Made by a program: the position numbers and the translations under genes
In this document: piece by piece, positions 36,816 through 41,457 of the stretch
How positions within the stretch are numbered: the stretch's first letter is position 1
Layout of the letters: every line of letters starts with the position of its first letter
The notes under the pieces: model-generated
Told to the model about the DNA's origin: nothing
Seen by the model: the letters and a program-made list of their open reading frames with translations, nothing else
Databases searched by the model: none
Assembly: GCA_021811155.1 (NCBI GenBank)
Contig: JAJZPO010000012.1
Location: 1-48,057 of the forward strand
Direction of reading: 5' to 3'
Length of the DNA stretch: 48,057 bases
Source: Bacillota bacterium
GTDB taxonomy: Bacteria > Bacillota > Desulfitobacteriia > Desulfitobacteriales > JAJXUE01

Positions 36816-37964
36816 TTATCCCTGTAATTCTTTGGCTATTTCAGACATAGCCTGGACCGCGCTGGCAATATCCTGCTCAGAGGTAAAGCTGGAGGGGCTA
36901 AAACGGATTGTCCCCTGCCGCAGTGTACCTATGGTATGGTGAGCCTGGGGGGCACAATGCAAACCTGACCTGACCGCGATGCCGAAGGCCCGATCCAAGA
37001 TAAAGGCTATCTCGTTAGCATCAACCTGGCCTAAATTGACTGATACCAGGGGCGCCCTCTCTTCCCTGGCACGAGGGCCGTAAATCTTGATACCCGGCAC
37101 CTTCTCCAGACCTGATATGAGGGATTGGCAGAGAAGAGTTTCCCGTTGGTAGCTCTTGTCCAGGCCCTCAGAAAGTATGTACTCCAGCCCGGCGCCCAGA
37201 CCGGCTATCCCCACCGTATTCAACGTGCCGCTTTCATACCGGTCAGGCAGGGCTTCCGGCTGAAATTCCAGCTCCGAGCTGCTTCCTGTCCCGCCTTGAA
37301 TCAGGGGCTCCAACGTCACCCTGGGTCCAACGAAAAGGCCGCCTGTCCCCTGCGGCCCCAGGAGTCCCTTATGCCCTGGGAAAGCTAAAAGGTCAATCAT
37401 ATATTTTTCAACGTCAATCGGTATGACGCCTGCGGTTTGGGCGGCATCGACCATATAGAAAATTCCATGTTCCCGGGCAATCTTTCCTATTTCCTCAATT
37501 GGCATTACAGTACCTGTGACATTGGATGCATGAGTTGTAATGATCAGCTTTGTATTTCTTTTTATAGCCGATTGGATGTCCGCCGGATTGAGTTTTCCTT
37601 CATGGTCACAAGCTACCGCCTCAAGTTCAACGCCCCGGCGTTCCAGGTACTTTAGGGGGCGCCAAACCGAGTTGTGTTCCATCGATGTGGTAATAACATG
37701 GTCTCCTGTCTCCAACATGCCATAAATTCCCATATTCAGGGCTTGAGTGGCGTTACCGGTAAACACTATTCGGCTAGGGTCCGGCACACCGAAAAGCTGC
37801 GCTAGCAGCTCCCTGGTACGGAGCACCAGGCGCCCTACCCCAAGGGTACCCTGATGGGAACCCCTTCCTGGGTTGGAGCCAAAGTCCAGCATTACCTTTT
37901 CCATGGCTTTAACTACCCCCTCGGGTTTGGGCCAGCTTGTGGCTGCATTGTCCAAATAGATCAT
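36816..37964 (-). CDS. Cysteine desulfurase-like class V aminotransferase
   Basis: The 382-residue PLP enzyme would release sulfur from cysteine as an enzyme-bound persulfide, or act on a related substrate. It begins MIYLDNAATSWPKP, and has TTSMEHNSVWRPL, the cofactor histidine and aspartate in YMVDAAQTAG, the PLP-lysine in FPGHKGLLGPQGTGG and the reactive cysteine segment RSGLHCAPQAHHT. It matches the EF2568-type family rather than NifS/IscS. The ATG follows AGGAGAAAAGACGGA; an upstream in-frame ATG gives eight extra residues. It is the first gene beyond the parS region. Confidence 0.88.
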   Translation of the reverse strand: MIYLDNAATSWPKPEGVVKAMEKVMLDFGSNPGRGSHQGTLGVGRLVLRTRELLAQLFGVPDPSRIVFTGNATQALNMGIYGMLETGDHVITTSMEHNSVWRPLKYLERRGVELEAVACDHEGKLNPADIQSAIKRNTKLIITTHASNVTGTVMPIEEIGKIAREHGIFYMVDAAQTAGVIPIDVEKYMIDLLAFPGHKGLLGPQGTGGLFVGPRVTLEPLIQGGTGSSSELEFQPEALPDRYESGTLNTVGIAGLGAGLEYILSEGLDKSYQRETLLCQSLISGLEKVPGIKIYGPRAREERAPLVSVNLGQVDANEIAFILDRAFGIAVRSGLHCAPQAHHTIGTLRQGTIRFSPSSFTSEQDIASAVQAMSEIAKELQG

Positions 37965-38202
37965 TCCGTCTTTTCTCCTTTTAAGCATACTCCTGACGAC
38001 GCTGTGAACCTGCGTCCGGTCATGTCAGGTATGGACTGCGAATAAGATATACTTTTCTGTTGGTGCAAAACCCGGCAATTTGTTGCTTTGAGCGGACCGG
38101 CAGATGTGCTGAGCTGCAGAAAGGCTTCGCTCTTCGCCACAATGTTAATTATATAGCTTCCTGTCCATGGAGAACAGGTTTTTGACGCCACAAGACCACA
38201 AA

Positions 38203-38218
38203 TGTTCCACGTGGAACA
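38203..38218. promoter_or_regulatory. parS: parS site 1 (perfect)
   Basis: Perfect 16-base palindrome TGTTCCACGTGGAACA. It opens duplicated block A. Confidence 0.93.
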
Positions 38219-38308
38219 TCTCTTTCAACAGCAGCTTCTCAATACTGGTCCGAAAAAACCAGAGCCGCCTCGGGAAGTTCTTGCGCAATTGCGATCGGGC
38301 CGACCTGA

Positions 38309-38324
38309 TGTTCGACGTGGAACT
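38309..38324. promoter_or_regulatory. parS: parS site 2 (degenerate)
   Basis: TGTTCGACGTGGAACT, two mismatches to the other sites. Its position, 106 bases after site 1, matches the perfect site 7 in block B. Confidence 0.7.
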
Positions 38325-38491
38325 TTCTTTCTCCGCTCCCTATGGAACAGATCCTTACAGCACAGACAAGAACCTTAAGACTGGACAATCCGAAAGCTGC
38401 ACATTTACCCTGGTAGTCACATTGAATATTACCGGTTCAAACCCGTGTCAAGTCGATGAAAAAATATCACCATCCCAGGAATTTGAGGATA

Positions 38492-38507
38492 TGTTCCACG
38501 TGGAACA
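38492..38507. promoter_or_regulatory. parS: parS site 3 (perfect)
   Basis: Perfect palindrome; end of block A, corresponding to site 8 in block B. Confidence 0.93.
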
Positions 38508-38659
38508 TTTTTTTGCGTGACCAACTCTCGAGGCATTAAAAGGTTTACATGTCTGCCCGCATTACCCTTGAAAACTCAGTCGATAGACCGGACGCAGCCT
38601 ATGCTTAAGATTCGATTTTTACACTCACAGCTTATGGCCATCTCATGAACTAAGTGCAA

Positions 38660-38675
38660 TGTTCCACGTGGAACA
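38660..38675. promoter_or_regulatory. parS: parS site 4 (perfect)
   Basis: Perfect palindrome in the single-copy part of the array between the two duplicated blocks. Confidence 0.93.
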
Positions 38676-38908
38676 ATCCATCACCAGTGCATCCCCTTGG
38701 TTGAAAACGCATGCTCCACAGACCTGGACAACCAGTGGCTCCAAGGCCTCGGACCTCCCTTGACGAACATCACGCCCGTTTGTGTGTTCCCCGCCTTGTT
38801 TGCATTTTCAGCCTGGCACGCACATGCCAGCCAAAAACGGAGCTCACGGCCGCGCCTAGAAAAACTCTTGCTTCCGGCCCACTCTGCAGCATATATCCCT
38901 CCAAGCCC

Positions 38909-38964
38909 AGACTAACCGTCGCAATAAATGTTCCACGTGGAACATTTATTGCGACGGTTAGTCT
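38909..38964. repeat. parS: 56-bp perfect palindrome centred on parS site 5
   Basis: The parS core at 38929-38944 is flanked on each side by 20 further bases that are exactly complementary (left arm starts AGACTAACCGTCGCAATAAA). The whole 56 bases have no unpaired centre. It can form a 28-bp hairpin or cruciform. Confidence 0.95.
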
Positions 38965-39115
38965 TCGATCCGCATCCCAATTCTTGTGACACAATGGTTT
39001 AGTCGAGAGAAAGCAATCTGCAAGCCCACATATTCGAAGCTGTCACTCCGGTTATAACAAACTGGTCTGGGTTGCAAATAGCATGCAAGAGAACATGAGT
39101 CAATTCCCAAGAAAA

Positions 39116-39131
39116 TGTTCCACGTGGAACA
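39116..39131. promoter_or_regulatory. parS: parS site 6 (perfect)
   Basis: Perfect palindrome; opens duplicated block B, matching site 1. Confidence 0.93.
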
Positions 39132-39221
39132 TTTCTATTAGCCGTAAACTTGTCAGCAATTGGTCCGAAACACCGTAGCCGCAGTCTAAAGTTTTTTTCT
39201 ATCGCGAACCGACCGTCCTAA

Positions 39222-39237
39222 TGTTCCACGTGGAACA
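39222..39237. promoter_or_regulatory. parS: parS site 7 (perfect)
   Basis: Perfect palindrome 106 bases after site 6, the intact counterpart of degenerate site 2. Confidence 0.93.
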
Positions 39238-39401
39238 TTCTCTCTTCGCTCACTATTAAACAGGTTACTTACACCACAGACAAGAGCCTTAAGAGTGGAC
39301 AGCCGGAAAGCTACAGGAACACGCAGGTAGGTCAGCTCAGTATTAGCAGCGCAACCCGTGTCTTGGCCAATGAAAAATATCACCATTCCAGAAAGCTCGT
39401 A

Positions 39402-39417
39402 TGTTCCACGTGGAACA
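39402..39417. promoter_or_regulatory. parS: parS site 8 (perfect)
   Basis: Perfect palindrome closing block B, matching site 3. Confidence 0.93.
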
Positions 39418-39631
39418 TTCTTAAGATACTGGGAACAAATAGCCAACAATTCCGGGTATATTATTTGCCAACCTTCTGGCCTAAGCATGTAAGTGACGAA
39501 CCCTACCTCTCTTCATCGGAGCAAGCAGGGTCTGAACGTCCTCATGCCAGCCTCATTATCCCTGGTACCGGCTTATAACAGGCAACAGCTCCACTAATAC
39601 TGCTAATACTGCTTCCCGTCCGATCCAAAAT

Positions 39632-39671
39632 AAAGATGTCCAATGTTCCACGTGGAACATTGGACATCTTT
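39632..39671. terminator. parS: 40-bp palindrome: parB terminator containing parS site 9
   Basis: The parS core at 39644-39659 is extended by 12 complementary bases on each side (AAAGATGTCCAA). On the minus strand the stem is followed by ATTTTGG and the last stem bases supply more T, giving a terminator-like hairpin 46 bases past the parB stop. On the plus strand TTTTT also follows. Confidence 0.85.
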
Positions 39672-39717
39672 TTCGTCAGGGGCAGAACCCCAATCTTCTA
39701 GTTTTGCTGTAAGCACT

Positions 39718-40584
39718 CTAACTCAGTTCACCAAGCAAAGTGTCAACAATCTGATTTAACTCCTCTTTGCTATAATACTCAATCTCTATTTTGCCTTTCG
39801 CACCCAACGCCTTAATTTTCACCTGGGTGCGCAGCAGGCCGCGCAGCCTGTCTTCAATCTGGGCAACAATCGGGTCAACTTCTTCCTGCTTCGGAGTTTT
39901 TTCCTTTTGCTGCTCCGGCTGGGTCTTGTCCAAGATGCTCTTGACCAGCGCTTCTGTCTCCCTAACAGATAAGCCAGACCTAACAACCTTTTCTAACGCA
40001 AGCATCAACAAAGATTTGTCCTCCAAGGCCAACAAAACCTTTGCATGGCCGACGGAGATTTTCCCTTCAGCCAGATAACGCTGCGCCTGCACCGGCAGTG
40101 TCAGCAGCCTTAACAAATTGGCAACAAAAGGACGGCTCTTGCCAATGCGCGAGGCCAGGCTTTCCTGGGTAAACCCATACTCCTCGATTAAACTCCTGCA
40201 AGCATTAGCTTCCTCAATCGGATTTAAGTCCTCCCGCTGAATATTCTCCAGCAGGGCAATCTCCGCCATTTCTGCGTCACTGCATTCCCGCACGAGGGCG
40301 GGTACAGTTTTCAGGCCTGCGAGCTGGCAAGCCCTGAAACGGCGCTCACCCGCAACTATTTCAAACCTGTCAGGGCCTTTCGAACGTAGCACTATCGGCT
40401 GAACTACACCATGCGCAGAGATCGATTCCGCCAATTCCTGCAGTTTGGCGGAATCAAACTGCCTGCGCGGCTGCCGCGGATTTGACTCAATCCGCTCTAA
40501 CAGAATTTCCCTAACTCCCTGGTCCTGAACCTCGGGAGCGGGAATCAAGGCCTGAAGACCTCTGCCAAGACCCTTTTTACTCAA
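39718..40584 (-). CDS. parB: Chromosome partitioning protein ParB (Spo0J)
   Basis: ParB binds parS, uses CTP to clamp and spread on DNA, and organises origin segregation; in spore formers it also counteracts Soj. The 288-residue protein begins MSKKGLGRGLQALIP, the ParA-stimulating N-terminus. It has the CTP-binding box VAGERRFRACQLAGL with NIQREDLNPIEEA, a helix-turn-helix (TQESLASRIGKSRPFVANLLRLL) and a C-terminal dimer domain. The start is a TTG overlapping the last codons of parA. An upstream extension of 20 residues is not family-like. Nine putative sites lie just downstream. Confidence 0.95.
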   Translation of the reverse strand: MSKKGLGRGLQALIPAPEVQDQGVREILLERIESNPRQPRRQFDSAKLQELAESISAHGVVQPIVLRSKGPDRFEIVAGERRFRACQLAGLKTVPALVRECSDAEMAEIALLENIQREDLNPIEEANACRSLIEEYGFTQESLASRIGKSRPFVANLLRLLTLPVQAQRYLAEGKISVGHAKVLLALEDKSLLMLALEKVVRSGLSVRETEALVKSILDKTQPEQQKEKTPKQEEVDPIVAQIEDRLRGLLRTQVKIKALGAKGKIEIEYYSKEELNQIVDTLLGELS

Positions 40585-41338
40585 GCTCCAAGACCTCCTT
40601 GGCCAATTCCCTGTATAGCTCGGCTCCCCTGGACTTGGAGTCATAGGAAATTATCGCCTGACCATGGCTGGGGGCCTCACTCAACCGCACGTTACGAGGA
40701 ATAATACTCCTGAAAACTTTACCGGGAAAATGTGCTTTAACTTCATCCACCACCTGAATTGACAGGTTAGTCCTGGCATCAAACATTGTCAGCAGCACAC
40801 CCAGGATCTCCAGCGCAGGATTTAAATGCTTTTGCACCAGGTTAATGGTGTTCATCAACAGTGATAAACCTTCCAAAGCATAATATTCACACTGAATCGG
40901 AATTAGAGCTTTGTCAGCGGCGGTCAGTGCGTTAAGGGTTAATAAACCCAATGAAGGCGGACAGTCAATAAAGATATAGTCAAAATTATCACGCACGCTG
41001 TCAATGGCCCTTTTTAATTTGTGCTCACGGGAAATGGCGGAAACAAGCTCAATTTCGGCTCCGGCCAGCTGAATCGTTGCCGGAGCCACTTTTAGGCCAG
41101 GGGTTTCCGTCTGCAGAATAACCTCTTCAAGCGGCTCCCCCTCAATAATAACATTATAGAGGCACTGACTCAGATTATCACGTTGAATTCCCAAGCCGCT
41201 GCTGGCATTCCCTTGCGGGTCATTGTCTACTATCAGGACCTTGTTCCCTAATTCAGCCAAACAAGCCCCAAGGTTTATAGCAGTTGTAGTTTTGGCTACA
41301 CCGCCTTTTTGATTCGCAACAGCAATTATCTGTCCCAC
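40577..41338 (-). CDS. parA: Chromosome partitioning ATPase ParA (Soj)
   Basis: ParA is the deviant Walker-type ATPase that works with ParB in origin segregation and, in Bacillus, tunes DnaA activity. The 253-residue protein has the deviant Walker A KGGVAKTTTAINLG near residues 10-23, the Walker B-like DYIFIDCPPSLGLLT, and VLLTMFDARTNLS. The start is set at a GTG coding MGQIIAVANQKGG, with GGGAGAGGG about 8 bases upstream. parB overlaps its stop by eight bases, indicating coupled translation. Confidence 0.95.
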   Translation of the reverse strand: MGQIIAVANQKGGVAKTTTAINLGACLAELGNKVLIVDNDPQGNASSGLGIQRDNLSQCLYNVIIEGEPLEEVILQTETPGLKVAPATIQLAGAEIELVSAISREHKLKRAIDSVRDNFDYIFIDCPPSLGLLTLNALTAADKALIPIQCEYYALEGLSLLMNTINLVQKHLNPALEILGVLLTMFDARTNLSIQVVDEVKAHFPGKVFRSIIPRNVRLSEAPSHGQAIISYDSKSRGAELYRELAKEVLELE

Positions 41339-41457
41339 ATCAATCGCCCTCTCCCACAGCATCTACTCTATATTCCACGCGCTGTACTGTTGTTCCTTCT
41401 CCCAGGCCAAACTTCCGGCTGTCAATCTATGGTTTTAGTCTATTCGGGGAGACAACA

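Follow-up and report, generated by a model that had tools for sequence, protein, structure and literature searches.

The window analyzed here, a stretch of 48,057 nt (contig JAJZPO010000012.1 of the Bacillota assembly GCA_021811155.1), carries a parS site that lies at the centre of a perfect palindrome of 56 bp. This raises the question of how a 16-bp ParB-binding core could have come by complementary flanks of 20 bases on each side. We consider it rather probable that parS seeds a hairpin from which fold-back template switching starts, in which the sequence on one flank is mirrored onto the other, and that such events have recurred across the Bacillota.

The parS array and neighboring genes

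The minus-strand genes of the window include, in order, mnmE, mnmG, rsmG, parA (40577–41362; Pfam AAA_31) and parB (39718–40644; Pfam ParB_N, HTH_ParB and ParB_C), followed by noncoding DNA (about 38000–39717) and, on its far side, a class-V aminotransferase-family gene (36816–37988; Pfam Aminotran_5). As listed, the parB frame begins inside parA, with which it shares 68 bases (40577–40644); translation of parB probably starts a little further downstream, or else the two genes are translationally coupled. All matches to parS in the genome, allowing up to two mismatches, fall within 38203–39659, adjoining parB and parA. They make up a noncoding array of 1.46 kb with eight exact sites (38203–38218, 38492–38507, 38660–38675, 38929–38944, 39116–39131, 39222–39237, 39402–39417 and 39644–39659), whereas 1–4 are usual in the order, and one degenerate site with two mismatches (38309–38324, TGTTCGACGTGGAACT). 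Three open reading frames within the array (38167–38520, 38711–38989 and 39186–39488) gave no Pfam match, and were treated as noncoding. The exact 16-bp core, its clustering beside the parAB operon and the three ParB domains are those of chromosomal ParABS systems with the known ParB/Spo0J site (TGTTNCACGTGNAACA); what differs is the perfect mirror symmetry that here reaches 20 bp past the core on both sides of one site.

Two parts of the array are related to each other. Unit A (38199–38511) contains three parS, one of them degenerate, and unit B (39112–39421), also with three parS, is a diverged direct copy of it, the two being 73% identical over 317 alignment columns (E 8e-41) with nearly equal parS spacing. 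Part of the array has thus grown by segmental duplication. The degenerate parS of unit A is the counterpart of the intact site at 39222 in unit B, and, judged by this alignment, is probably a decaying site.

A 56-bp perfect palindrome centred on parS

The palindrome (38909–38964) sits between units A and B, about 750 bp from parB and with no gene end adjacent to it. A repeat search returned inverted arms at 38909–38939 and 38934–38964 that overlap and are 100% complementary, and a direct scan gave an arm of 28 nt around the centre without a spacer. The middle is occupied by an exact parS core (TGTTCCACGTGGAACA, 38929–38944), so that the description in the initial annotation, with 20 further perfect pairs on each side of the 16-bp core, is exact. 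At a GC content of 0.52, the chance of 20 further pairs is about 0.25^20, or 1e-12 per site and about 1e-11 over nine sites, and a chance origin was rejected. As a control, 277 kb of other sequence from the source genome was scanned and contained no spacerless palindrome with an arm above 12, while 200 kb from each of two relatives (G021 and G062) contained a few long spacerless palindromes away from parS, a point against the seed model proposed below, though some of them resemble a repeat element. A dispersed repeat or mobile palindromic element was likewise rejected, as a search of the genome with the arm sequence returned self matches only and no second copy.

Folded as a single DNA strand, the palindrome is predicted to be a hairpin (−29.9 kcal/mol, z = −14.5) whose stem has 26 bp and whose loop has 4 nt. 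No Rfam family matched at its gathering score, the sub-threshold matches being to microRNA families only, as any long hairpin would give. Features of a terminator were sought at the site: there is no T-run on either side (at most two T in eight), and it is absent from the predicted terminators.

Recurrence of extended parS in related genomes

The order was sampled in 58 genomes with 123 parS sites. Of these sites, 22 have at least six perfectly mirrored bases past the core, against 0.05 expected. A null model in which the left flank of one site was paired with the right flank of another gave 0.75 sites at a score of 7 or more, where 18 were observed among the 117 distinct sites. Long perfect arms surround parS in a genome of the same genus (G001, 42 bp), in G017 (50 bp) and G062 (44 bp), in the three related species G021, G025 and G033 (46 bp), and in G044 (also 46 bp), and G056 has a 44-bp palindrome that is perfect except for a single mismatched pair in the middle of the parS core. 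Further cases were found in the class and phylum samples. The initial annotation had proposed looking in related strains for the same palindrome, and perfect palindromes centred on parS do recur, but their arm sequences are unrelated from site to site. Most parS in the window array and in the relatives have no arms.

The effect extends to other symmetric cores. In more distant Bacillota, 8 of 96 sites with another perfect-palindrome variant, TGTTTCACGTGAAACA, are extended (0.04 expected), and none of the 11 asymmetric cores in the same loci is. When perfect and imperfect cores are compared as seeds, the difference (30/200 versus 1/31, p = 0.09) is a trend only. The binding sites of Noc (ATTTCCCGGGAAAT) were taken as a control palindrome, and were too few across four genomes. 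A 52-bp palindrome in G002, a genome of the same family, has the core CATATG, a symmetric change at the two central bases (TGTTCCATATGGAACA). This genome has no exact consensus parS, its best sites (L062:1421 and L062:1650) being TGTTCTACGTGGAACA and the palindrome with core TGTTCCATATGGAACA. A search for relatives among parB-bearing viral contigs found none.

Polarity and persistence of the arms

The arms of extended sites are perfect and then stop: past the first mismatch, the match rate falls to background (57/219, 26%). The window palindrome shows the same perfect reverse-complement arms and abrupt end, as would be left by a template switch. In several relatives, the direction of copying can be read from a new arm that a related genome lacks. 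In the family f2, parS usually lies 0–8 nt past the parB stop codon, as seen in many species (loci L184, L086, L200 and others), and the end of parB is sometimes inside a palindrome arm. The spacer between stop codon and parS is 12 nt in G044, compared with 0–8 nt in related species, and alignment places an insert of 9–10 nt here, a mirror copy of the far flank. Its final 4 nt also occur in the original sequence, which makes a single microhomology at the return junction. In G021, G025 and G033, and in G062, it is the distal arm that mirrors the last parB codons and the stop codon.

To polarize the event at the window palindrome itself, the array was searched for a paralog of the arm that had not been mirrored, and none was found. 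The relatives were searched for both flanks; none covers them, the contig of G001 ending about 760 bp past parB. The aminotransferase gene was used to look in G001 for the other end of the array, and its match there is on a different contig from parB.

The palindrome of the parB-proximal parS in the G021 group, 46 bp long, is identical in the three species while the surrounding DNA is about 88% identical, and such lengths are therefore tolerated. The view that long perfect palindromes are unstable and usually lost, as in the initial annotation, is thus overstated. Palindromes that are lethal or strongly unstable in Escherichia coli are much longer, from about 150 bp upwards. The annotation's suggestion of a recent origin is the one we favor, given arms that are perfect, end abruptly and differ between species, together with the mirror-copied insert in relatives. 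At the second site that the group shares, decay by indel is visible in G021. A gapped comparison detected hardly any imperfect long palindromes, essentially all of those found being perfect; by calculation, about 70% of detectable palindromes would be imperfect under neutral decay by substitution.

Proposed origin and alternatives

The spacerless parS palindrome of 16–20 bp would allow the growing strand to fold onto itself during replication. The polymerase would then use the flank it has just synthesized as template for about 20 nt, before switching back to the proper one. The return would leave perfect arms with an abrupt end, the outcome of fold-back or quasipalindrome template switching. 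Each event at a perfect-palindrome parS would use whatever sequence happens to flank the site, and the product would still present one normal parS to ParB. The arms may be kept perfect by recency or by repeated templated correction, though selection for pairing would account just as well for the lack of aged palindromes. We infer the polymerase steps themselves. Since none of the relatives covers the flanks and no paralogous arm exists, we also infer, by analogy with the relatives, that the 56-bp palindrome arose in the same manner.

Quasipalindrome template-switch mutation is established in E. coli (PMC7202029), and template switching has been proposed for both the birth and the upkeep of hairpins (PMC8794818). 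The parS cases resemble the former (the Ripley model, studied with lacZ and thyA reporters in E. coli) in that arms are perfected by copying an arm or flank across. In known cases, the switch mostly repairs a quasipalindrome that is already there, whereas at parS a functional palindrome bound by protein seems to be the seed of new arms, up to 20 nt long, in unrelated flanks. With the template-switch hairpins (PMC8794818) they share perfect stems that would arise in one event and be maintained without mismatches; those hairpins are in RNA genes, while the seed here is centromere DNA and most cases give no sign of an RNA role.

Several other explanations were weighed. The palindromes might be selected hairpins, with parS at the tip of an RNA structure that ends transcription and with pairing of the flanks favored whatever their sequence. 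T-runs after several clostridial cases, the perfection of the arms and the palindrome next to parB (described below) speak for this, whereas the 56-bp palindrome lacks a T-run and is remote from parB, many of the extended sites lie away from gene ends, and T-runs are not clearly commoner at 30 extended sites than at controls (33% versus 25%). Termination would therefore explain a subset only, and is unlikely to be the source of the palindromes as a whole. A mixed history, in which a template switch creates the arms and selection on pairing for a weak stem function then maintains them, would account for the near absence of imperfect palindromes and for the identical 46-bp palindrome in three species; the indel decay in G021 goes against it, templated correction would also restore perfection, and we think it quite improbable. 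We favor mirror copying over gradual selection, given the arms that are perfect and then stop, the polarity seen in relatives and a mechanism that is already established for quasipalindromes in E. coli.

Very improbable, in our assessment, is a special centromere element in which cruciform extrusion or additional ParB contacts make a stronger loading site, even though a stable hairpin is possible and the site occupies a central position among densely packed parS. Arms without a common sequence cannot be read by ParB as a motif, most parS in the array and in relatives lack them, and, going by the folded structure, extrusion would place the central ACGT of parS in the loops and so destroy the duplex site. 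No paper linking parS and cruciforms was found in the literature search, and the cruciform or special nucleation function put forward in the initial annotation finds no support here. The 56-bp site is presumably an ordinary functional parS, one more in the array. That the palindrome is an artefact of assembly or amplification is hardly credible: the source genome is a draft of 149 contigs, yet the site is interior to its contig, a read is longer than the 56 bp in question, and similar palindromes are present in the closed genome of G021 (one contig) and in G062, where parS is on a 5.66-Mb contig spanning essentially the whole genome.

Both parS and the mutational mechanism are known, and the novel element is parS as a recurrent seed. 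A search of the literature, mostly outside subscription journals, found no such pattern of parS palindromes and nothing relevant on parS together with terminators, hairpins, cruciforms or template switching. More broadly, and as a tentative proposal, centromere sites may be recurrent seeds of mirror-copying mutation, such that parS neighborhoods in the Bacillota are constantly being turned into perfect palindromes. Forks that are stalled or bound by ParB would perhaps favor folding back, and some products may become terminators. If true, natural genomes would offer a large data set on the birth, upkeep and loss of spacerless palindromes around a fixed, known seed. Template switching at parS would also help to explain the fast turnover of parS flanks, would be one route by which terminators arise, and would serve as a warning that long parS palindromes need not signal a special centromere function.

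The palindrome beside parB and other repeats

An addition to the initial annotation is a second perfect palindrome, of 40 bp (39632–39671), around the parS nearest parB (39644–39659). It is 58 bp past the parB stop codon and terminator-like on the minus strand, with a stem followed by a T-run near a gene end, and probably doubles as the parB terminator. G001 has a different palindrome, of 42 bp, at the same distance from parB and followed by TTTTTGC. In stem and T-run, this pair resembles intrinsic (rho-independent) terminators; the 56-bp palindrome, lacking both a T-run and an adjacent gene end, does not.

Other long palindromes, spacerless or nearly so, were seen in order-level relatives (L226:11713, L229:16654, L236:18047 and L188 at about 1300–1550). 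They share the flanking motifs ctggggatt and gggatt and resemble a small dispersed palindromic element, one member of which seems to be inserted in the parS array of G048. In class-level relatives, parS occurs as a centromere-like tandem satellite with periods of 67, 69 and 71 bp (G078:C54:26346-26892, G079:C70:14186-14744 and G085:C1:809927-810498).
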